From assembly GCA_002855745.1 (NCBI GenBank), contig NDWX01000004.1:1-64000 (forward strand): 64,000 nt of DNA, in the 5' to 3' direction. Of the stretch, positions 1,902 to 15,095 are shown one piece after another. The translations under genes were made by a program, and so were the position numbers. How positions within the stretch are numbered: the first letter of the stretch is position 1; each line of letters opens with the position of its first letter. Origin of the DNA: Thermofilum sp. NZ13. GTDB lineage: Archaea; Thermoproteota; Thermoprotei; Thermofilales; Thermofilaceae. The notes beneath the pieces are model-generated. The model was not told where the DNA came from and made no database searches. It was given only the letters and a program-made list of their open reading frames with translations.

Positions 1902-3449
1902 TCACACCGGTGGGACTCCGTGCTTGCGAGGTGGTCTGGGTTGCCTCTCACGCTTGTCCATGAGGAACTGGAGCAACTTGTAGAGGTAGGGCCTCGTCTC
2001 CCTGGGGAGTATCACGTCGTCAACGTACCCCCTGGCTGCTGGCACGTAAGGGTTCGCTATCTCGCTCCTGTACTTCTCGGCGAAGACCTTAGCGAGCTCC
2101 TCAGGGTTCTCGGCCTTCTCGAGCTCCCTCTTGTATATTATCTCAATAGCCCCCTCGGGTCCCATGACCGCTATTTCAGCTGTCGGCCAAGCTAGTACGA
2201 AGTCCGCTCCCAGGTGCTTGCTCCCCATCGCGATGTACGCCCCGCCGTATGCCTTCCTCAGTACGACGGTGATCTTCGGTACTGTGGCGTCAGCGTAGGC
2301 GTAGATTATCTTTGCGCCGTGCCTGATCACTCCGTGGTGCTCCTGGTAGGTGCCCGGCAGGAATCCCGGGACGTCGACGAACGTTACGATGGGGAAGTTG
2401 AACGCGTCGCAAAACTGCACGAACCTGCTTATCTTGTCTGAAGAATCTATGTCGAGGCTCCCGGCCATCACGGCGGGCTGGTTCGCCACAACGCAGACCG
2501 CGTGCCCGCCAAGCCTGGCGAAGCCAACCACCGCGCTTTGAGCGAAGTGCTGGTGGACTTCGAGGAAGCTTCCTGCGTCGAACACCCGGTAGATCACTTC
2601 TCTGACATCGTAGGGCTTCACTGGGTCGTCCGGCACTACGCTCTCCAGCGAGCTGTCCTCGCGGAGCGGGTCGTCGCCCGTCTCGACGAAAGGAGGATCC
2701 TCGGTGTTGTTGCTCGGCAGGTAGCTCAGCAACCTCCTAACGAGGGCAATCGCCTCTCGGTCGTCCTCCGCTATGAAGTGCGCGACGCCGCTTCTAGACG
2801 CGTGGATCTCCGCGCCCCCAAGCTCCTCGAACGTCACATCCTCTCCTATGGATGCCTTCACGACCTTAGGGCCTGTTATGAACATGTAGCTTTTCCTAGT
2901 CATCACAATGAAGTCGGCCAAGGCAGGGCTGTAAACAGCTCCGCCAGCGCAGGGACCCATTATGGCTACGATCTGCGGTACCACGCCGCTCGCCATGACG
3001 TTCCTGTAGAATATCTCCCCGTAACCCTTGAGTGAGTCGACGCCCTCCTGGATCCTCGCACCCCCGCTGTCGTTAAGCCCTATGACAGGAACACCCAGCT
3101 TTAAGGCCAGCTCGATCGTCCTGGCGATCTTAGCCGCGTGCATTTCCCCGACGCTCCCGCCCATGAAAGTGAAGTCCTGAGCGTAGACTGCTACGCGTCT
3201 CCCGTCGACGGTCCCGAGGCCTGCGACAACGCCGTCGCCGTAAGCTTTCTTCGACTCCATGCCGAAGCCCGTGGCTCTGTGCTGGACGTACCGCCCGATA
3301 GGGATGAAGGAGTCTGGGTCAAGCAGGAGGCTAAGCCTTTCATGCACTGTGAGCCTCCCCTGCTCGTGGAGCTTTCTCACGAGCTCCTCGCTCAGGCTGT
3401 CGGTCGCTCTTCTCCGCTCAATCAGCTCGGCAATCTTTCTGTCATCCAT
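1902..3449 (-). CDS. pccB: Acyl-CoA carboxylase carboxyltransferase (beta) subunit
   Basis: A 515-aa protein of full family length that transfers carboxylate from carboxybiotin to acetyl- or propionyl-CoA. Both crotonase-fold halves are present: the N-terminal half with GFGMESKKAYGDGVVAG and NDSGGARIQEG (acyl-CoA oxyanion region), and the C-terminal half with FVDVPGFLPG and a Gly-rich GAYIAMGSK segment. The start is ATG at 3449. A PxpC/KipA-like gene ends 19 bp upstream, so the two are probably co-transcribed. The likely biotin carboxylase partner lies far away at 41498-42961, and no biotin carrier protein is found in the window. Substrate preference cannot be read from sequence alone. Confidence 0.93.
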   Translation of the reverse strand: MDDRKIAELIERRRATDSLSEELVRKLHEQGRLTVHERLSLLLDPDSFIPIGRYVQHRATGFGMESKKAYGDGVVAGLGTVDGRRVAVYAQDFTFMGGSVGEMHAAKIARTIELALKLGVPVIGLNDSGGARIQEGVDSLKGYGEIFYRNVMASGVVPQIVAIMGPCAGGAVYSPALADFIVMTRKSYMFITGPKVVKASIGEDVTFEELGGAEIHASRSGVAHFIAEDDREAIALVRRLLSYLPSNNTEDPPFVETGDDPLREDSSLESVVPDDPVKPYDVREVIYRVFDAGSFLEVHQHFAQSAVVGFARLGGHAVCVVANQPAVMAGSLDIDSSDKISRFVQFCDAFNFPIVTFVDVPGFLPGTYQEHHGVIRHGAKIIYAYADATVPKITVVLRKAYGGAYIAMGSKHLGADFVLAWPTAEIAVMGPEGAIEIIYKRELEKAENPEELAKVFAEKYRSEIANPYVPAARGYVDDVILPRETRPYLYKLLQFLMDKRERQPRPPRKHGVPPV

Positions 3450-3468
3450 CCAACAGGCACCCTCGCGC

Positions 3469-4047
3469 CTAGGAGAGCTCGAGTACCCAGACTTCGAACT
3501 CGCCCCCGTTCAGCCTCACTCTAACCTGCTCAGCCCCCCTTCTCACAGCCTCGAGAACCATGCCGATATGCCTCTGAACCCTGGCTACAGATTCAAGCCA
3601 GTCCCCGTTGGCGACGCGCAGGGTGTGAGGGACTCTCAAGGCGCGAAGGTCGCTGTCGGCGATGCCGTTGAGCTCTTGAACGCTGAAAGCATCGCCCTCC
3701 CTAACTGGGAGCTTGCCGCTAGCCGCGGCGCTTAGACCTCTGACGGAGAGGTACGCTGTTGCCCCGGACCTGATCATCACGCCCTCGCTGGCGAAGAAAG
3801 CGGTCCAGGGCTCCACCCTTCTCCCATCGGCAATAACCTCCGCATCCCCTGCCACGGCCATCAAGGTTTTACCGTTCAAAACGGCCTCAAACTCCCCGGC
3901 CTGGAGCTCGATGGCTGGGGCTGTGAGGCTGTTAAGTGAAAGCAGGTTTGACACGGCGTGGGCGAACTTATCCTGCGAACCCAGGGGGTTAGGCGAAAGG
4001 AAAACCCTGTATGCCTTTCGTACTACCAACGTCATACAGCCATACAC
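3469..4047 (-). CDS. Half-length PxpC/KipA (AHS2)-like protein
   Basis: A 192-aa protein that resembles the N-terminal part of PxpC/KipA, the C subunit of 5-oxoprolinase, also called allophanate hydrolase subunit 2. The similarity covers a PNPLGSQDKFA stretch, ADGRRVEPWTAF, an AYLSVRGL strand and a later REGD segment. The family is normally over 300 aa, so the C-terminal half is missing. The last 18 residues (VRVRLNGGEFEVWVLEL) look like the first strand of a biotin carrier domain, but a stop follows and no EAMKM-type lysine motif exists. GTG at 4047 is close to leaderless after a CTTAAATA box; ATG at 4035 is the alternative. It precedes pccB. Function unknown. Confidence 0.55.
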   Translation of the reverse strand: MYGCMTLVVRKAYRVFLSPNPLGSQDKFAHAVSNLLSLNSLTAPAIELQAGEFEAVLNGKTLMAVAGDAEVIADGRRVEPWTAFFASEGVMIRSGATAYLSVRGLSAAASGKLPVREGDAFSVQELNGIADSDLRALRVPHTLRVANGDWLESVARVQRHIGMVLEAVRRGAEQVRVRLNGGEFEVWVLELS

Positions 4048-4124
4048 CGCTTAGGGTGCCTTACACGTCATGTGGTATTTAAGGCTTGCCGATAATAGCT
4101 TCGACGCTCGTCGAAAGCTCCGGA

Positions 4125-5270
4125 CTATACCACCCAGTCCTCGATGTTTCTATCCCTCATTACTAGAACTCGAATGAAGCCGGCCAGAAGGATCGTAAAC
4201 CACAAGGGCTGGTACACTAGGAAGTATAACGGGTAAAGGTATAGGTACGACTTCATGCCGACGTACCGCGATGCTATGAAATGCCAGGACGAGAAGGCGA
4301 GGAGCACGGCCAGCAAGGGGATGATGTAGACGATTTGCAGGTTAATGGAGAGAATCGCGGCTAGCGGTATGAACTGGGCCGTCACGGAGGAAAGAGAGAG
4401 CAGTGCTAGGTAGAGAGTCTTCGCGAATGTGTGGTTGTAGAGTAGGAAAGGCAGGAGGGTCGACACGAGCGACGGCAGGGAGATCAGCAGGCCCGGTAGC
4501 AGCACGTGAGGCATCCTGGCGAGAGCCCTAAACCCCACCCTGTAGTACCTCTGCAACCAGTCCGCTAAACCAACCGCCCACCTTTTCCTCTGTTTGTACC
4601 ACTTCCTCCACGACTCTGGGGCGTAGTTATAAACCTCGGTGGCGCCGATGTACGTGAACCTATGGCCCTTCAGGAAGCTCCTGACCGCCAGGTCGAAGTC
4701 CTCCGAGATTATCGGCTTGAAGAACCCAACCTCCTCCAAGGCCCTCCGCGTGGCGGCGAAGGCAGCTCCGTTGATCGCTACAGTCCTCCCAGCAAAACGG
4801 GCCATGAGCTTGCTCGCGAAGTTCGTGGCCACGTACTCTATGTAGACCATTTTCCCAAGAAGCCCCCCGCCAACGACAACCTTCTTTATATCAGCTATAT
4901 CGAACCCCTTAATCCCATCCACGACTTTCTCGATGAAAAGGGGGTCCAGAACCTCAACGTCGTCATCGAGGAAAACCACAACCTCCCCCCGCGAGAGCCT
5001 CAAGGCCGTGTTAAGGGCGCTAACCTTCCCCGCTCTTCTAGCGTTGAAGACAACCCGAACACCCTCGATCCGCGAGAGCGCCGAAGCAACCTCCTCAGAC
5101 GGCTCGTCCACAACTACGATGATCTCGAGGCTCGGGTACTTACTCCCGGCCAGCGCGCTCACAAGCCTGACAAGCCTGTCGCTCCCGCGGAACGAGGGGA
5201 TCACAACGCTAACCGACTTGAGCTCCTGACGGCTCTCAACGACCACGGCAGGCACTTCGTCAGACGACAC
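4125..5270 (-). CDS. Membrane glycosyltransferase, family 2
   Basis: A 381-aa inverting GT-A enzyme that would transfer sugar from a nucleotide donor at the inner face of the membrane. The N-terminal catalytic domain (about 17-245) has VVIPSFRGSD, the metal-binding FLDDDVEV, an acceptor-site ISEDFDLA and QRKRWAVG, the Q-x-x-R-W motif of processive and related GT2 enzymes. The C-terminal third has about four hydrophobic spans (about 255-370). The acceptor is unknown; polysaccharide, glycolipid or N-glycan precursor are all possible. It diverges from the small gene at 5321. Confidence 0.88.
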   Translation of the reverse strand: MSSDEVPAVVVESRQELKSVSVVIPSFRGSDRLVRLVSALAGSKYPSLEIIVVVDEPSEEVASALSRIEGVRVVFNARRAGKVSALNTALRLSRGEVVVFLDDDVEVLDPLFIEKVVDGIKGFDIADIKKVVVGGGLLGKMVYIEYVATNFASKLMARFAGRTVAINGAAFAATRRALEEVGFFKPIISEDFDLAVRSFLKGHRFTYIGATEVYNYAPESWRKWYKQRKRWAVGLADWLQRYYRVGFRALARMPHVLLPGLLISLPSLVSTLLPFLLYNHTFAKTLYLALLSLSSVTAQFIPLAAILSINLQIVYIIPLLAVLLAFSSWHFIASRYVGMKSYLYLYPLYFLVYQPLWFTILLAGFIRVLVMRDRNIEDWVV

Positions 5271-6196: not shown

Positions 6197-6210
6197 AAAT
6201 ATTTATAAAC
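6197..6210 (+). promoter_or_regulatory. TATA box of the peptide ABC operon
   Basis: The sequence AAATATTTATAAAC, preceded by a purine-rich BRE-like AGGAA, lies about 28 bp upstream of the ATG at 6232, so the transcript should have little or no leader. The surrounding 5998-6231 stretch is AT-rich and holds no gene that I can see. Confidence 0.7.
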
Positions 6211-6231: not shown

Positions 6232-8421
6232 ATGGCTGAAAGCCGCAGGAGAAATTTGTTGCTGGTAACAGCTGTCATAGCTATAGTACTCGTTGCGGCT
6301 ATTGTAGCATTCATATTCTTACAGCAGCCACCACCTCAACAACCTACTGCCCCAGCTCAGCAACCAGGAGCTCCTCCTCAGCAACAACCAGTTACACAGC
6401 CTACGAAGCCTTTCCATAAACAAATATTATACCTTATCGTTAACGACGAGGGAACCAGGATCAATATGTACAAGACGGGCGTCTTCGACATAGCCGTTGT
6501 TACTCCTGCACGTTGGCCTGACGTAAACAACACGCCAGTTGATGGTTTCAGCCTACACCTTGTACGTAGACCCGATAAGCCCCAGCTGACAATACAGTAT
6601 GTCGGGTTAAACCCGATGAGAGCACCTCTTAATATAACGGAAGTCCGCTACGCATTAGCATACGCTGTACCCTACGACGTGATACTCAACCAAGTGTTCA
6701 ACAAACTATACACTAGGCTCTACACAATAGTTCCACGCGGGATGCCTGGCTACACAGAGTATGGAATCGTTAAGTTTGAATACAACATGACTAAAGCTAA
6801 GGAGCTAATCGCGTCCCTTAAAGCAAAGGGCTTTGACCCGAGCAAGTACACAATCACAATAATCTACAACGAGGGTAACACCGCTCGCCAGCAGATCGCT
6901 ACGCTCCTTCAGCAGTCGTGGAGCGAGCTTGGTTTCAAGGTTACCGTCGAGGCGTATGCCTGGCCAAAGTACTTGGAGCTTGTTGACAACTTCCAATACG
7001 ACGTGATGTTACTAGGTTGGATACCTGACTATCTTGATGCAGACAACTTCTTAATGCCATTCGTGTGGGGAGGTGCTGAGTTCAAAAACATAGAGTACGC
7101 AAGTAAAGTAGCCGCAGGCGATGTAGGAAAGTACTTAGCCAAGGTAGATGAAGCTATAGAGACTGAAAAATTCATTGTAGTTGTAGGACCTAAAGGCTCA
7201 GGTGCAACCTACACTGGGTCAACAAGCAAGCCGCTAGTAGTTGTGGCCTACGAAGTAGATTGGGAGGCTACAAACGCAAACTGGGAGAAGCCGGTAAACA
7301 TGGTTACACTAGGTACAGGCGGCCTAAAAGATATAATTCTAAGTGCACTCTGTAAGGCCTCTCAGAGAATATTAGAGCCAGACGCCCGAGAAGCGGTTAT
7401 ACAAGCCGCTGTCATCAAGTTCAACAAAGCGAGCTCGCTAATTATGCTTGGTCAGCTCATTACCGGTGAAAACTATGGTAGCTGGGTTTACGGCATGTAC
7501 TATCCAGTAGGCGCAGTTTCCACCCGCTACGACCTTGTCTGGGAAGACCCCAAGGCTCCTGTGGTTGACACCGGAGTTCTTGGCATCAAAAATAACCCAG
7601 AGACAATGGTAATAGGCGACATAGGTTGGCCTGACACCTTCGATCCTGCAAAGTCCTACGAGTCATTCGGTTGGGAGATATTCGAACACACATACAGGAG
7701 GCTTGTGACTCTCTGGAAGGAAGAAACCGAGCCTATACCTGACCTAGCCGTAGCATGGGCCTTCAGCAAAGATATGACAGAGCTCTACTTTGTCATAAGA
7801 GGTAATGTTGTCGGTTACGACCCGTGGAACAACAAGACTTACCCGATTGACGCTACCGACGTACTCTTCTGCATATGGAGAGCTGTGAGAGCTAATTTGC
7901 CAGGTGGACCGCAGTGGATGATTGACGAGTTCATCGATGTGAATGCTTCAACAGTGCTAAGCGAGGAGGAATTGGACAGTATTGCTAGGAGCCAGGGATT
8001 AGTGACGGCATTTAAAGGTAAGAGCGCCGAGGTCCACAGCTTAAAGGATCTGCTCAGCTTCTTCGGATATAGTGGATCAACAGCAGGCGTGGTCAAGTTC
8101 AAGTTGAAGTTCCCATATGTGCCAATACTGCAAATCTTCCCAACAGGTGTCGGCGCCATCTATCCAATGGAGTACGCGCTAGGCGACCAATACAGCGCCG
8201 CAATTGCAGCGTCGAAAAACGGCAAGGATCCTGCAGCATGGGCTAAGTTTGTGCAACCAGGCGAGGATGATCCAATACACCAGTTGCTAGCAAAGAAGCC
8301 TGTATCAACCGGACCCTACTACGTGGCCGACTACAAAGAGGACAGTTACATCCTGCTGAAGTACAATCCATATTACTGGAACGCAACGTTGTGGAAAGAA
8401 CTGTACGGCTTCAAGCCCTAA
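6232..8421 (+). CDS. Peptide ABC transporter substrate-binding protein, halves swapped
   Basis: A 729-aa lipid- or membrane-anchored binding protein of solute-binding family 5 (OppA/DppA). A hydrophobic anchor (9-30) is followed by a Pro/Gln-rich linker (31-58). Normal members start with the LDP...LAESW half and end with the half carrying the conserved D-rVRqA motif. Here the order is reversed. Residues 61-440 carry the usual C-terminal half (NDEGTRINMYKTGVFDIAV, ITEVRYALAYAV, AREAVIQAA). Residues 456-729 carry the usual N-terminal half (GWPDTFDP, IPDLAVAWAFSKD, DATDVLF, STGPYYV, YNPYYW). The protein stops right after that YW motif. It is the first gene of a five-gene operon and is probably the cargo receptor for oligopeptides, although other solutes are possible. 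Confidence 0.85.
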   Translation: MAESRRRNLLLVTAVIAIVLVAAIVAFIFLQQPPPQQPTAPAQQPGAPPQQQPVTQPTKPFHKQILYLIVNDEGTRINMYKTGVFDIAVVTPARWPDVNNTPVDGFSLHLVRRPDKPQLTIQYVGLNPMRAPLNITEVRYALAYAVPYDVILNQVFNKLYTRLYTIVPRGMPGYTEYGIVKFEYNMTKAKELIASLKAKGFDPSKYTITIIYNEGNTARQQIATLLQQSWSELGFKVTVEAYAWPKYLELVDNFQYDVMLLGWIPDYLDADNFLMPFVWGGAEFKNIEYASKVAAGDVGKYLAKVDEAIETEKFIVVVGPKGSGATYTGSTSKPLVVVAYEVDWEATNANWEKPVNMVTLGTGGLKDIILSALCKASQRILEPDAREAVIQAAVIKFNKASSLIMLGQLITGENYGSWVYGMYYPVGAVSTRYDLVWEDPKAPVVDTGVLGIKNNPETMVIGDIGWPDTFDPAKSYESFGWEIFEHTYRRLVTLWKEETEPIPDLAVAWAFSKDMTELYFVIRGNVVGYDPWNNKTYPIDATDVLFCIWRAVRANLPGGPQWMIDEFIDVNASTVLSEEELDSIARSQGLVTAFKGKSAEVHSLKDLLSFFGYSGSTAGVVKFKLKFPYVPILQIFPTGVGAIYPMEYALGDQYSAAIAASKNGKDPAAWAKFVQPGEDDPIHQLLAKKPVSTGPYYVADYKEDSYILLKYNPYYWNATLWKELYGFKP

Positions 8422-8461: not shown

Positions 8462-9529
8462 GTGACGCTCATGGGGTTGGCTAGCTTCCTCGTGCGACGG
8501 ATGATATCGTTTATTCCCAGCATTATAGGTGCCCTTCTAATTACGTACGTGATCGCCTATGTGATTCCGACAGACCCCGTTAGGGCATGGGTTGGCGAAA
8601 AGTTACTTAACCCGCAGACTCTGGAGGACTTGAGAAGAAAGTATAAATTTGATGCTCCCTGGTACGAGCAATTTGCTTTCCTCGTAACCCAGCTACTGAC
8701 AGGGCAGCTCAGAGATCCAACAAGAGGTGACTTAGTTGTCGAGCAGGTAGCCCAGCGTTTCCCGGTGACTGTAGAGCTAGCAATCTTTGCATTCTTCTTT
8801 ACCGTTGTTATAGGAATTCCATTAGGAATTGCAGCTGCGGCGAAGCGGGATAGCGCTCTAGATCTCTTCGTGCGAGTTTTCGCGCTCTTCGGTAGCTCTA
8901 TGCCATCGTTTGTGCTGTACTATCTTCTCATACTCGTTTTCTACGTGCATGTGAAGACCACGCTTCTGGCAGGTGTTCCCGCATTCTCCAATGCCTGCGC
9001 GATGCAACTAGCTGGGCTAAAGGATGGCGTCCCAGTATTTGGTTGGATAGCGTGGGCTGTTGGCCAGGTTCCTATGTTCGGTGCGCTTATGTGCGGCGAG
9101 TTTCAGGTAGTTTCCGATACGTTTACAAGAATGTGGTTGCCTGGTTTCGCGCTCGGTGTGCTTTCGGCAGGTTTCATCGCTAGGATAGTGAGGAACAGTC
9201 TCCTCGATGCATTGAGTTCTGAGTCAATTCTTTTTGGAAAAGCCCGAGGGCTATCCAGCTGGACAATTTGGAAGCATGCGCTTAAAAATGGCTTTGCGCC
9301 AATTATCACTATTCTTGGCCTAGATTTTGCTGGATTGCTGACAGGCGCTATTATCGCGGAGACTATCTTTAACATCCCAGGCTTAGGAAGGTACATTTAC
9401 CAAGGGATCACGCGCTTGAACTTTCCTATAATCATCGCCGGCACTTTCCTATTCTCCCTGGTGTATATTATCATGAACCTAATTGTAGACATACTATACG
9501 CGGTGTTAGATCCTAGGGTAAGGTACTGA
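8462..9529 (+). CDS. Peptide ABC transporter permease, DppB-like
   Basis: A 355-aa inner-membrane permease with about six hydrophobic spans. The N-terminal FLVRRMISFIPSIIGALLIT segment is typical of DppB/OppB. The EAA loop that contacts the ATPases appears as ESILFGKARGLSSWTIWKHALKNG. The C-terminus ends in LYAVLDPRVRY, the usual DppB tail. The first start is GTG at 8462, with ATG at 8471 as an alternative. It lies 40 bp after the binding protein and 12 bp before the second permease. Confidence 0.93.
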   Translation: MTLMGLASFLVRRMISFIPSIIGALLITYVIAYVIPTDPVRAWVGEKLLNPQTLEDLRRKYKFDAPWYEQFAFLVTQLLTGQLRDPTRGDLVVEQVAQRFPVTVELAIFAFFFTVVIGIPLGIAAAAKRDSALDLFVRVFALFGSSMPSFVLYYLLILVFYVHVKTTLLAGVPAFSNACAMQLAGLKDGVPVFGWIAWAVGQVPMFGALMCGEFQVVSDTFTRMWLPGFALGVLSAGFIARIVRNSLLDALSSESILFGKARGLSSWTIWKHALKNGFAPIITILGLDFAGLLTGAIIAETIFNIPGLGRYIYQGITRLNFPIIIAGTFLFSLVYIIMNLIVDILYAVLDPRVRY

Positions 9530-9541
9530 GGTGTCGAAACC

Positions 9542-10636
9542 ATGAATTTACTATACACTCTCTTCTCAAAAATCTTGAACGGGTACGTTGCACTAAGGGA
9601 AAGGCTAAGCCCGGGCTGGCTAGACAAGAATAGGTCTAAATTGCAGGAGACTAAACTCACGCTTTATGCTTTAGCAACTTCAAAAACCGGAGCCGCAGGG
9701 TTACTACTCGTATTTATCACAACTTTCCTCGCAATATTCGGTCCCTTTATAGCGTGGGAGCCCTACGACACTTACCCGCTATTACAAAACCCGAGCTTAG
9801 CTGGAATGTTGCCCTACCCCCCATGTTTCGGTACCTGTTCAGGGTTACCGTTATGGGGAACCGACAACTATGGACGGGATGTTCTCTCGTTAGTAGTTAG
9901 GGGCTTCAGGATAGCCCTTGTCATGAGCTTCATCATAGTTCTTGTGGGAGCTACAATAGGGGTGATTCTCGGTCTAATTGCGGGCTACTTCGGCGGTTTA
10001 GTGGATGAGGTGATAATGAGGTTTACTGATATGATGTTCGCTTTCCCAGGCCTTGTATTGGCGATCGCATTTAGTCTCACGTTGAGGATATCAGTGAGGA
10101 ACGTGTTGGCGGAAAACCCTGCGCTTACCTCTTTCTTCGCTGCGATTTTCGCCCTAAACCCGGGAGATGCACCGAACATTGCAAACCTCCTCTCTCTTTT
10201 CCTCGCCATGATTTTGGTTTGGTGGCCTCCCTATGCTAGGGTTGTTAGAGGCTCCGTACTGACAATAAAGGAGCAGGGGTTTGTTGAAGCCGCAAAAGCC
10301 CTAGGCCTTTCCACCTGGAGGATCCTGCGGAAACACATCTTGCCAAACATCCTCTCACCTCTACTTGTCATGCTCACGTTTGACATAGCTACAGCTGCTC
10401 TCTCTTCAGCCGCTCTCTCTTTCCTCGGTCTAGGGGCACAGCCCCCTGTTCCCGACCTCGGATTGCTCGTCTCGATGGCTGGTCAATATTTTCCTGAGAG
10501 AAGCTGGTGGATAGTTATTGAGGCGGGTACGGCCTTGCTACTCATCTCTCTAGGTTGGAACATGCTGGGGGACGCACTGCGCGACGTGTTTGATCCAAGG
10601 ACCAGGAGGTCAATAGAGCTGAAAGCGAAGCTGTAG
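9542..10636 (+). CDS. Peptide ABC transporter permease, DppC-like
   Basis: A 364-aa second permease of the importer. The N-terminal cytoplasmic segment leads into hydrophobic span 1 (GAAGLLLVFITTFLAIF). PLWGTDNYGRDVLS is the hallmark DppC/OppC loop. The EAA motif reads EAAKALGLSTWRILRKHILPN. The C-terminus, GDALRDVFDPRTRR, is also typical. An extra hydrophilic insert around residues 180-200 (VLAENPALTSFF) is longer than in bacterial members. It pairs with the preceding permease. Confidence 0.93.
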   Translation: MNLLYTLFSKILNGYVALRERLSPGWLDKNRSKLQETKLTLYALATSKTGAAGLLLVFITTFLAIFGPFIAWEPYDTYPLLQNPSLAGMLPYPPCFGTCSGLPLWGTDNYGRDVLSLVVRGFRIALVMSFIIVLVGATIGVILGLIAGYFGGLVDEVIMRFTDMMFAFPGLVLAIAFSLTLRISVRNVLAENPALTSFFAAIFALNPGDAPNIANLLSLFLAMILVWWPPYARVVRGSVLTIKEQGFVEAAKALGLSTWRILRKHILPNILSPLLVMLTFDIATAALSSAALSFLGLGAQPPVPDLGLLVSMAGQYFPERSWWIVIEAGTALLLISLGWNMLGDALRDVFDPRTRRSIELKAKL

Positions 10637-10646
10637 GTGATAGTAT

Positions 10647-11645
10647 ATGGCTGAGATGAGTGACGGGCAGGTGCTGAAGGCCCGCGGAGTTACGGTGCGT
10701 TTCTACACCTATGCTGGTGTAGTGCACGCGGTAACAGATGCATACCTTGATGTTTTTCAAGGTGAGACTGTTGCCATAGTTGGTGAAACCGGTAGCGGTA
10801 AAAGTGTCTTCACTAGAAGCCTCACAGGTTTAATAGAGCCACCTGGTAGAATTGAATCCGGGAGTGTTCTATTCAGGAGGAGAGACGGTACAGTCGTAGA
10901 CTTATTTAAACTTAGCAGCGAAGAGCTCAGAAAAATCAGAGGTGATGAGATCTCTTATGTGTTTCAAGACCCTAGTAGTGCTCTTGATCCCCTATATACA
11001 GCTGGTCATCATATCGTTGAAACTATTCTGGAGCATCGGAAGGCTTCACGGCGAGAAGCGCTACAAGAGGCGGTCATGCTCCTGAAGGACGTCCTTATTC
11101 CTACCCCGGAAATACGTGTGAAAAACTACCCACATGAGCTGAGCGGAGGTATGAGGCAGAGGGTTGTTATTGCAACGGCAATCGCGAACAGGCCCCGTCT
11201 CCTCATAGCGGATGAACCGACAACTAGCTTGGATGTTACCGTTCAGGCTCAGATACTCGACTTGCTTGCGAGCCTGAAGGCTAAGTATGGGATGAGCATT
11301 ATACTAATTACTCATAACCTAGGAGTTGTAGCCGAAGTAGCTGACAGAGCATATGTCATGTACGGGGGGAGAATCATGGAGACAGCGGACGTCTTCACGC
11401 TTTTTGAAAATCCAGCACATCCATACACCAAAATGTTGTTGCGTGCACTGCCTGATCCTACCAGGAAAGTGAAGAGACTTGAGTCAATACCCGGTACTGT
11501 CCCAACACTTATTGATATGGGACCTGGCTGTCCATTTGCCCCTCGTTGCCCTTACGCAATGGATATCTGTAAAAAAGAGTTCCCAGCTTCCGTTATGCTG
11601 GGTGACAATCATACGGTTCACTGCTGGCTTCACTCAAAGAAGTGA
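10647..11645 (+). CDS. Peptide ABC transporter ATPase, DppD-like
   Basis: A 332-aa cytoplasmic ATPase. Walker A is VGETGSGKS, the signature is LSGGMRQR, Walker B is LLIADEPTTSLD and the switch His is in LITHN. The C-terminal oligopeptide extension has GCPFAPRCPYAMDICKKE and a later HCW, so all four cysteines of the probable Fe-S site are kept. It overlaps the next ATPase gene by 4 bp. An in-frame ATG four codons in is an alternative start. Confidence 0.93.
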   Translation: MAEMSDGQVLKARGVTVRFYTYAGVVHAVTDAYLDVFQGETVAIVGETGSGKSVFTRSLTGLIEPPGRIESGSVLFRRRDGTVVDLFKLSSEELRKIRGDEISYVFQDPSSALDPLYTAGHHIVETILEHRKASRREALQEAVMLLKDVLIPTPEIRVKNYPHELSGGMRQRVVIATAIANRPRLLIADEPTTSLDVTVQAQILDLLASLKAKYGMSIILITHNLGVVAEVADRAYVMYGGRIMETADVFTLFENPAHPYTKMLLRALPDPTRKVKRLESIPGTVPTLIDMGPGCPFAPRCPYAMDICKKEFPASVMLGDNHTVHCWLHSKK

Positions 11646-12604
11646 TGGGTATGGCGTTGCTTAGGCTGGAGAATATTAAAAAGTACTTCCGTGTTAGAGG
11701 CTCATTGTTCAAGTCTCTTAAAGCAGTCGATGGAGTGTCCTTGGAGATCGGTAGCAGCGAAACGTTAGGATTGGTAGGGGAAAGCGGTTGCGGGAAGTCA
11801 ACATTAGGTAGAGTTGCTATCCGGTTACTAGAGCCTACCGCAGGTCGCATCATATACGAAGGGGTGGATATAACAAGGCTCAGCAACCGAAAGCTTAAAG
11901 AGTTCAGGAGAAGAGCACAGATAGTATTCCAAGATCCAAACACCTCTCTTAATCCAAGAATGACTGTTTACGAAATCTTAATGGAGCCTCTTTACGAGTA
12001 TGGCATGGTGCCAAGTGATCCTGAAAGCTTTTTAGTCGAACAGCTCAACTCAGTGGGCCTAGGCAAGGAGCACTTATTCCGCTATCCACACGAGTTAAGC
12101 GGAGGCCAGAAGCAACGCATTGCGATACTTAGGGCCCTCCTACTCAATCCATCGCTGATTGTTTTAGACGAGCCGACGTCATCCCTAGACGTCTCCGTCC
12201 AAGCGCAGATCCTTAATATGTTAAAAGATCTTCAAGCTGAGCATAAGATCTCATACCTTTTTATCTCACACGACATCGCAGTGGTCAACTACATGAGCGA
12301 CAGAATTGCCGTCATGTACCTTGGAAAGATCGTCGAGGAGGGAAAAGTGGAGGCTGTTCTCGAAAGTCCGGCTCACCCCTATACGAAGTTTCTCTTAAAC
12401 GCTGTTCCAATACCAGATCCGAAGCTTAGGAACAGGAAAAGGGAAATGCTACAGGGTGAACCGCCATCACCTATCAACGTACCGCCTGGTTGCAGGTTTC
12501 ACCCGCGATGCCCCTACGCAATGGATATATGCAGGAGGGAGGAGCCACCTTTCTTCGAAATCGAGCCCAACCACCGCGTCGCATGCTGGCTCTACTCCAA
12601 GTAA
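11642..12604 (+). CDS. Peptide ABC transporter ATPase, DppF-like
   Basis: A 320-aa second ATPase of the importer. Walker A is VGESGCGKS, the Q-loop region reads VFQDPNTSLNPRMTV, the signature is LSGGQKQR and Walker B is LIVLDEPTSSLD. The C-terminal cysteine motif GCRFHPRCPYAMDICRRE plus CWL is complete. GTG at 11642 overlaps the preceding stop, with ATGs at 11645 and 11651 as alternatives. It ends the operon, and its last 13 bp overlap the convergent gene at 12592. Confidence 0.93.
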   Translation: MMGMALLRLENIKKYFRVRGSLFKSLKAVDGVSLEIGSSETLGLVGESGCGKSTLGRVAIRLLEPTAGRIIYEGVDITRLSNRKLKEFRRRAQIVFQDPNTSLNPRMTVYEILMEPLYEYGMVPSDPESFLVEQLNSVGLGKEHLFRYPHELSGGQKQRIAILRALLLNPSLIVLDEPTSSLDVSVQAQILNMLKDLQAEHKISYLFISHDIAVVNYMSDRIAVMYLGKIVEEGKVEAVLESPAHPYTKFLLNAVPIPDPKLRNRKREMLQGEPPSPINVPPGCRFHPRCPYAMDICRREEPPFFEIEPNHRVACWLYSK

Positions 12605-14012: not shown

Positions 14013-14096
14013 ACGCGCAGCGAAACCCTGCGCAACACCCTACGCTCTCGGTAGCTCCTCTTATGTTAAATGCTGGTTGTACCATGAGGGTAAGAG

Positions 14097-15095
14097 GTGA
14101 GGGAAGTGGGTGAAGACAGGGTGTTGCTGAGGGCTCAGGATCTGAGAATGTGGTTCGAGATACGTAGAGGTCTGTTCGCGGAACCAGTTCCCCTGAAAGC
14201 CGTTGACGGTGTAACCTTTGACCTTGGCGTCGGCGAGGCGGTGTCTGTTGTCGGCGAGTCTGGGAGTGGAAAAACAACGCTTGGAAAAACCATCCTGCGC
14301 CTTTACAAGCCAACTGGAGGGAAACTCGTCTTCAAGGGTCGCGACATCACCAGCCTCGACGAGAAGGAGCTGATGTGGTACAAGAGGGAGACCGGCCTCG
14401 TGCAGCAGGACCCGTACGGGGCGATGCCGTCCTTCATGACGATCTTCAGGATCCTCGAGGAGCCCCTCATAGTACACAAAATAGGTAGCAAGGAGGAAAG
14501 AAGGGAAATGGTATTCAAGGCTCTGGAGGAGGTTAGACTCACACCAGTCGAGGACTTTGCCTTCAAGTACCCACACATGCTTAGCGGGGGGCAGTTACAG
14601 AGAGTTGCCATTGCGAGAGCGCTTATCCTCAAGCCCAGCTTGGTTATAGCAGACGAGCCTGTCTCGATGCTCGATGCATCGGTGAGAGTGGAGATCCTCA
14701 CGCTCATGAGGGAGCTGCAGGAGAAGAGGAACATCAGCTTCATCTACATCACCCACGACCTCTCAACAACGAGGTACTTCAGCGAGCAGATCTTCATAAT
14801 GTACGCTGGCCACCTCATCGAGCGCGGGCCAACGAAGACGCTTCTCCGAAACCCCCTGCACCCGTACACGCGCGCGCTTTTGGCCGCTATCCCGGACCCC
14901 GACCCGGAGAACAGGAAGCGCTTCCGAGAGGTGCCTGCCGGCGAGCCGCCAAGCCTCATAAACCCGCCCCCGGGTTGCAGGTTTGCTCCCAGGCGCCCCT
15001 TCGCGACGGAGAAGTGTAGGCGTGAGGAGCCGCCCGAGTTCGAGGCTGAGCCAGGGCACTTCGTTAAGTGCTGGCTTTACGCCGGTACCTCCTAG
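14097..15095 (+). CDS. Orphan OppF/DppF-like ABC ATPase
   Basis: A 332-aa ATPase of the oligopeptide importer class. Walker A is VGESGSGKT, the Q loop is VQQDPYGAMPSFMT, the signature is LSGGQLQR and Walker B is LVIADEPVSMLD. The C-terminal extension reads GCRFAPRRPFATEKC, so the second cysteine of the usual CRFAPRCP motif is Arg, and any Fe-S site would be incomplete. No permease or binding-protein genes flank it, and it lies 1.5 kb from the complete importer. It could serve another importer or be a remnant. The start is GTG at 14097. Its 3' end overlaps the DUF72 gene by 4 bp. Confidence 0.85.
   Translation: MREVGEDRVLLRAQDLRMWFEIRRGLFAEPVPLKAVDGVTFDLGVGEAVSVVGESGSGKTTLGKTILRLYKPTGGKLVFKGRDITSLDEKELMWYKRETGLVQQDPYGAMPSFMTIFRILEEPLIVHKIGSKEERREMVFKALEEVRLTPVEDFAFKYPHMLSGGQLQRVAIARALILKPSLVIADEPVSMLDASVRVEILTLMRELQEKRNISFIYITHDLSTTRYFSEQIFIMYAGHLIERGPTKTLLRNPLHPYTRALLAAIPDPDPENRKRFREVPAGEPPSLINPPPGCRFAPRRPFATEKCRREEPPEFEAEPGHFVKCWLYAGTS

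Follow-up and report, generated by a model that had tools for sequence, protein, structure and literature searches.

Circularly permuted segment order in a family-5 solute-binding protein encoded beside an Opp/Dpp-type importer of Thermofilum

The 64,000-nucleotide stretch of Thermofilum sp. NZ13 DNA analysed here (the window) encodes, at 6232..8421 on the + strand, a 729-residue family-5 (OppA/DppA-type) solute-binding protein whose chain is circularly permuted. We refer to the usual first half of this family as N, the second half as C and the last ~80 residues as X, giving a normal order of N-C-X; this canonical OppA/DppA order is absent from the window protein, and Pfam, a profile of normal-order relatives, solved DppA sequences and a predicted structure agree that its segments run C-X-N. 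The protein is very likely a genuine circular permutant of the family-5 (cluster C) solute-binding proteins and the membrane-tethered receptor of the adjacent Opp/Dpp-type ABC importer, a reading in which the fold of the first half, ligand binding, delivery and tethering are inferred.

The 729-codon frame begins with an ATG at 6232, is open throughout and ends with a stop at 8419-8421. The original prediction gave the gene its own TATA box, and a TATA-box-like TTTATAAA can be read directly at 6202..6209 (+), ~23-30 bases upstream of the ATG; this spacing would fit a leaderless archaeal transcript, an inference from sequence alone. Hydropathy identifies an N-terminal hydrophobic helix (residues 9-28; 6256..6315, +) as the sole candidate for a membrane anchor, with a value of 3.3 at residue 9 against 0.0 in the best C-terminal window, and this is followed by a Pro/Gln-rich linker (residues 31-58; 6322..6405, +) seen in the sequence and in pLDDT values <50 at residues 29-60. 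The C segment (residues 59-291; 6406..7104, +), which is the usual second half minus its last ~80 residues, is separated from X by a lineage-specific insert of ~55 residues with beta strands (about residues 292-345; 7105..7266, +), delimited by the predicted structure and by rotated alignment. The X segment itself (residues 366-436; 7327..7539, +), the family's usual C-terminal end, was located with an iterated profile (42.6 bits). An X-to-N linker (about residues 437-457; 7540..7602, +) corresponds to the fused old C- and N-termini, and is recognizable both in C-X-N relatives and in relatives with the order X-N-C. The N segment (residues 454-718; 7591..8385, +), the usual first half, comes next, and a C-terminal tail at the new chain end (residues 719-729, the ATLWKELYGFKP region; 8386..8418, +) is near-identical in six orthologues. 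The chain now starts and ends in what we call the N|C loop, between the NPYYW strand and the one after it.

Three sets of sequence matches place C before N. The Pfam family PF00496 (SBP_bac_5, 368 positions) matches the whole protein with a score of 187.7 bits, against a cut-off of 32.4, in two stretches that run in the reverse of the normal order: 6406-7065 encodes the match to positions 145-361 and 7729-8382 that to positions 1-142. In a profile built from 21 normal-order relatives, residues 59-291 correspond to positions 227-454, residues 454-569 to 41-149 and residues 677-718 to 194-226; the N-terminal helix matches this profile weakly (8.1 bits). A phmmer comparison with the solved E. coli DppA (1dpp_A) aligns residues 114-277 with 257-419 (65.0 bits), and the N pieces, which are weak on their own, align as 459-556 with 3-102 (12.2 bits) and 686-718 with 175-207 (4.8 bits). 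Since C precedes N in the Pfam, DppA and normal-profile matches alike, the protein is a permuted and not a canonical member of the family. Asp408 of DppA grips the amine of the bound peptide; in the phmmer alignment it corresponds to Asp266 of the window protein, which is invariant in six orthologues. The DppA equivalog model NF043070 of NCBIfam scores 88.5 bits against a cut-off of 1005, and none of the 11 listed NCBIfam models reaches its cut-off.

The non-iterated profile missed X in the window protein and found it between C and N in the orthologues L041-L043. Iterated profiles were partly built from permuted proteins, and the independent test of the order is that made with non-iterated profiles. 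With profiles of normal-order proteins only, the order C-X-N was recovered in all 18 proteins of the window protein's clade (clade A), with X visible in 12 of them, and the order X-N-C in 29/29 X-N-C proteins; two of the 18 clade-A sequences are the window protein and a near-identical copy from another genome of the same species. Because the same order recurs in 18/18 clade-A proteins, chance is not a credible source of it.

Structure prediction supports the second half of this assignment. The model of the window protein has a mean pLDDT of 67.4 and a pTM of 0.57, with residues 411-439 and 468-503 under 50. Residues 58-437 of the model align with residues 207-507 of 1dpp_A (Z 20.8, rmsd 3.2, 289 residues), which is the second half down to the normal C-terminus, X included; the fold of this half is a model prediction. 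The first half is placed by sequence and not by structure, owing to the middling quality of the model. For an X-N-C relative, L134, the model is of pLDDT 77.1 and pTM 0.74, and its residues 244-743 align with 1dpp_A 1-445 (Z 19.9, rmsd 3.4, 404 residues). That a sequential aligner picks up the second half of one protein and the first two segments of the other is what two rotations of one circle should give. Among the structural matches of the window protein are mannobiose-bound receptors of Thermotoga maritima. The original prediction, that the two halves are reversed at residues 61-440 and 456-729, held by Pfam, by DppA sequences, by the normal-order profile and by structure alignment, with its limits correct within a few residues. 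Neither of the outcomes it had named as refuting was seen: no colinear alignment to OppA/DppA was obtained, and each of the two segments matches a different half of the family.

The reversed order could in principle be an artefact of one genome, through mis-assembly, a frameshift or a rearranged pseudogene. In favor of this, the window's genome is a draft of 33 contigs in which a further permuted paralogue is interrupted by a TAG codon. Against it, the frame of the window gene is open throughout, and the same gene is present in a one-contig genome of the same species (G192, locus L155), where 728 of the 729 residues are identical (99.863% over 729 residues). Orthologues of the same order are found at 75-78% identity (L038-L040), 64-67% (L156-L159) and 46-50% (L041-L043 and L160). 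Among 300 Thermoproteota genomes sampled, 22 had a match at E <= 1e-30; the order was C-X-N in 13 of these, the window's own included, and X-N-C in 10, with both in one, and for two of the 22 genomes the orders were taken from the order of matches only. The C-X-N genomes span five family-level groups (codes f1, f9, f15, f34 and f58), which meets the proposal in the original prediction that orthologues in related archaea be compared. A set of 28 named loci gave 7 C-X-N, 17 X-N-C and 4 cut by contig ends; the record titles include Pyrobaculum, Desulfurococcales and Thermoprotei for C-X-N, and Pyrodictium, Pyrodictiaceae, Staphylothermus, Aeropyrum, Tiamatella and Acidilobaceae for X-N-C. With conservation of the order shown on this scale, an artefact is all but excluded. 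The spread of the relatives was sampled within Thermoproteota, and chromosomes outside the phylum were not covered; in a plasmid search with the window protein (tblastn), 676 records had a match and none had one place covering 80% of the query.

The gene neighborhood of the receptor is that of an importer operon. Downstream on the + strand lie permease B (DppB/OppB type; 8462..9529), permease C (DppC/OppC type; 9542..10636), ATPase D (DppD/OppD type; 10647..11645) and ATPase F (DppF/OppF type; 11642..12604); these are open reading frames with counterparts in related loci, a homologue of permease B among them standing beside the receptor, and their family names were read from the sequence without a profile search. 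The claim of a single intact gene with an intact operon, and not a frameshift artefact, is upheld by the open frame and by these permease and ATPase genes (8462-12604). A homologous permease gene adjoins the receptor in 15/15 C-X-N loci, in 16 of 17 loci of an inner X-N-C group and in 4/4 of an outer one (both groups are described below); in the inner group five of the permease neighbors are divergently transcribed, and L149 has none in the stretch examined. The order receptor-permease-permease-ATPase-ATPase is kept wherever the stretch is long enough (e.g. L128, L129 and L133).

Alternatively, the permuted protein may have kept the fold while giving up the role of importer receptor, and now serve at the surface or as a sensor. 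Some family members in other systems are known to act as sensors or in assembly, the beta insert comprises ~55 residues, and no ligand is known. The permease gene beside the receptor in every C-X-N locus examined and the conserved operon order speak against this, and we consider it very unlikely. The permuted proteins are instead likely to be working, membrane-tethered importer receptors with a moved tether site, although their expression, folding, ligand and transport are inferred. The ligand may be a peptide, which the conserved Asp266 would suit, or an oligosaccharide, toward which the mannobiose-bound structural matches and the glycoside hydrolase genes near some receptors would point.

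Several observations were made around these loci. In G011 (L196 827-14095) the neighbors of the receptor operon are a GH106-family match, a DUF4832/DUF4874 protein and a gene that appears GH3-like by eye; the frame of this last gene continues across a gap of N into that of the receptor. In G062 a GH1 gene is present ~4 kb from the receptor. By eye, within the first 42 residues, a [KR][GA][LI]S motif precedes the helix in 15 of 46 clade-A and X-N-C N-termini. The motif is reminiscent of the pilin-like signals of Sulfolobus sugar receptors (PMC2910488). It is absent from the window protein, and we therefore make no claim of a class III signal peptide.

Consideration of the chain ends in the X-N-C relatives gives insight into the history of the permutation. 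Clade A is opened between NPYYWNATLWKELYGFKP and KPFHKQILY. The X-N-C proteins were rotated into the C-X-N register and aligned, with positions given in the numbering of the window protein (P0001). In 22 inner X-N-C proteins the C-terminus falls at residue 292-293 (6 proteins) or 304 (16 proteins), and the chains resume just before a VVVG strand, near residue 307. Five of six outer X-N-C proteins end at residue 321, after the VVVG strand; the sixth, L044, ends at 292 and apparently has no VVVG strand. Given these different ends, the two X-N-C groups were opened at different points. The X-N-C chain ends all fall within the lineage-specific insert of the window protein.

A tree of 42 proteins (473 columns, N-C-X register) unites clade A with all X-N-C proteins (100/100) and sets them apart from 7 normal outgroup proteins; within the group the outer X-N-C proteins branch first, followed by the C-X-N lines, with the inner X-N-C proteins nested inside (97/93 and 99/96). 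For tree building, rows were removed if cut by contig ends, <45% filled or >90% identical, which reduced 128 rows to 112. A single clade of all X-N-C proteins is rejected (p 7.7e-9). For the C-X-N proteins of clade A, a single clade cannot be rejected (p 0.057), and for this reason a path from X-N-C to C-X-N and back is only a suggestion. Repeated re-opening of an already fused circle is the simplest reading; its direction is unsettled. The closest relatives of other order are themselves permuted (X-N-C) and share the junction of the old C- and N-termini, and the window protein is therefore probably not one step removed from a normal gene.

From one sequence alone, the order of its halves cannot tell a permutation from a chimera, in which the second half of one solute-binding protein is joined to the first half of a different paralogue, and genomes of this phylum do carry several family-5 paralogues. 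Separate trees of the N, C and X segments, from which the divergent clade D described below was excluded, nevertheless group the same 35 proteins (clade A and X-N-C) with SH-aLRT values of 99, 99 and 98. The C-X-N and X-N-C relatives also match round the whole circle, with identities of 47-49% in the best segment for the X-N-C loci L134, L139 and L140. As the three segment trees give the same clade, the halves share one history; this argues for permutation, and makes a chimera very unlikely.

Permutation extends beyond this group. Clade B has the order C-X-N in 7/7 proteins by non-iterated profiles. Clade D was examined in 12 proteins of 867-919 residues with iterated profiles, which found C first in 12/12, then X in 8 and N in 5. 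Most clade-D members escaped the non-iterated N profile; a profile-profile comparison that used 24 of the proteins settled the order, matching 35-282 to the normal C profile (E 2e-21), 287-360 to X (6e-8) and 377-678 to N (4e-9), each E-value being that of a single comparison. Comparisons of these parts with the wrong segments gave probabilities <1%. In clades B and D, the C segment stands directly behind a signal peptide, and a stalk and membrane helix form the end of the chain. A third form, L084 (G029; 2881-4929), is opened inside C, in the order c2-X-N-c1, followed by an MG2-type domain and a C-terminal hydrophobic helix; among its matches in 200 genomes at E <= 1e-30 there was no other full-length protein of this order, and this opening consequently rests on one protein from one draft genome. 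A hydrophobic helix is present at the N-terminus only in clade A and the X-N-C proteins, and at both ends in clades B, D and L084. A clade-D query had matches at E <= 1e-30 in 104 of 200 sampled Thermoproteota genomes, some of which cover only the first half of the query; the order itself was checked only in the 24 proteins. The clade-B query had matches in 13 of 200 genomes, mostly colinear with it. One consequence is that a PF00496 match to one half only, as in clade D, may flag a permuted protein and not a fragment.

It could be argued that a single permutation underlies every permuted family-5 protein of the phylum (clade A, X-N-C, B, D and L084) and that the other openings arose from it. 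The X-to-N fusion is common to all of them, and the p-AU value for a single clade is only 0.044, which is borderline, for a group that was named after the tree had been seen. This test was run on a quick tree that a constrained search later beat by 28 log units. Against a single permutation, forcing all of them into one clade costs 51.8 log units relative to the free tree; joining B, D and L084 improves on the free tree by 28.0, which widens the gap to the best known tree to ~80; and the segment trees also keep B apart from clade A. Clades B, D and L084 as one clade are not rejected. A single permutation is thus unlikely, two or more origins are the likelier account, and clade D is probably of separate origin from clade A. 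A bolder reading, toward which we lean slightly, is that the family-5 receptors of Thermoproteota are a permutation series, in which fused ends were then reopened at four or more places, including the N|C loop and two points between C and X. If this is true, the permuted and not the normal order would be a standard state of a receptor family in this phylum.

Some features of individual paralogues were recorded in passing. The clade-B permuted receptor of the window's genome (L006 5249-7456; G000:C1:13248-15455) is split by its in-frame TAG into 230 + 492 codons; its homologues in G068 and G096, at 69-70% identity, have no stop, and G192 has no match to clade B at E <= 1e-30. G192 carries an X-N-C paralogue (G192:C1:111289-113154, a 691-aa frame) besides its C-X-N protein, with no such match in the window's genome, G000. 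At 14036-14058 of the window, ~6.6 kb of G192 (L192 3965-10583) is missing from the window's genome; the missing segment encodes a clade-D permuted receptor and two permeases, together with the greater part of an ATPase gene. The window ATPase at 14097-15095 looks like a remnant of this operon, and the flanks share ~20 bases at the junction. At 282-1745 the window encodes a protein with a C-terminal CPLCG...CTRCG motif, which by eye looks like a TnpB-type transposon protein. A genome search had suggested in-frame TGA codons in three clade-D genes; in L193 the codon merely terminates the gene, and in the other two genes the aligned stretch contains none.

We propose that the old C-terminus was fused to the old N-terminus by a short linker, closing the fold on itself, and that the product would retain the usual two-lobed clamp, binding a peptide or oligosaccharide between its lobes and handing it to the adjacent permeases. 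The N-terminal membrane helix and proline-rich linker would tether the receptor outside the cell, entering the fold at the N|C loop. The ends have moved more than once in the lineage, as its C-X-N and two X-N-C openings indicate; the simplest inferred route is duplication within the operon followed by partial loss. The original prediction of a tandem duplication followed by loss of the outer halves fits the data but is not shown, and the finding is wider than it had claimed, taking in the X-N-C relatives, a second C-X-N group and one further opening. A fused double-copy gene, the expected intermediate, was not seen among the proteins scanned, without a systematic search. Because the chain ends have moved, the tether would enter the same fold at different places. 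The known domain limits of DppA put the N|C loop in lobe I and the X-N-C ends in lobe II, and it is possible that the tether changed lobe between relatives that stand beside homologous permeases. On the further suggestion that a permuted receptor binds its importer differently, the only result that bears is the presence of homologous permeases beside either order.

Compared with DppA/OppA (E. coli DppA, 1dpp), the window protein is homologous over both halves, matches SBP_bac_5, has the predicted second-half fold and stands in an Opp/Dpp-type operon; it differs in having the order C-X-N and not N-C-X, in the helix and linker that lead into C, and in the beta insert between C and X. The X-N-C receptors of Pyrodictiaceae, Acidilobaceae and others (L134-L150) belong to the same clade, with a homologous permease beside 16/17 and a homologous X-to-N linker, but have their ends at P0001 residue 292-304, whereas those of the window protein lie in the N|C loop. 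The clade-D receptors (~830-930 aa, e.g. L077) share the order C-X-N with the window protein; they are deeply divergent, start with a signal peptide and end with an Ig-like or coiled stalk and a membrane helix. The open-access literature that we searched held no report of natural permutation in family 5 or cluster C (subscription papers were not covered), and nothing usable on Sulfolobus OppA and anchored archaeal oligopeptide receptors. Published examples of natural circular permutation in importer receptors are few, with one clear case in the literature searched: TpMglB-2 (Tp0684), a cluster-B glucose receptor in which a tethered ABC-importer receptor is naturally circularly permuted, and for which the authors propose tethering as the reason (PMC4990184). 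The permuted and re-permuted orthologues beside homologous permeases amount to evolution's own experiment in moving the chain ends and the tether on one fold; they offer a way to test whether docking depends on where a tethered receptor is attached and, as close relatives of both orders (C-X-N and X-N-C) exist, to trace the steps that lead to a permuted gene. The cluster-B (type I) fold is not matched by the window protein, whose Pfam and listed structure matches are to family 5 and cluster C. TpMglB-2 is a bacterial type I cluster-B protein in which part of the N lobe has moved, with one topology reported, whereas the family described here is archaeal, belongs to cluster C and has at least four openings.
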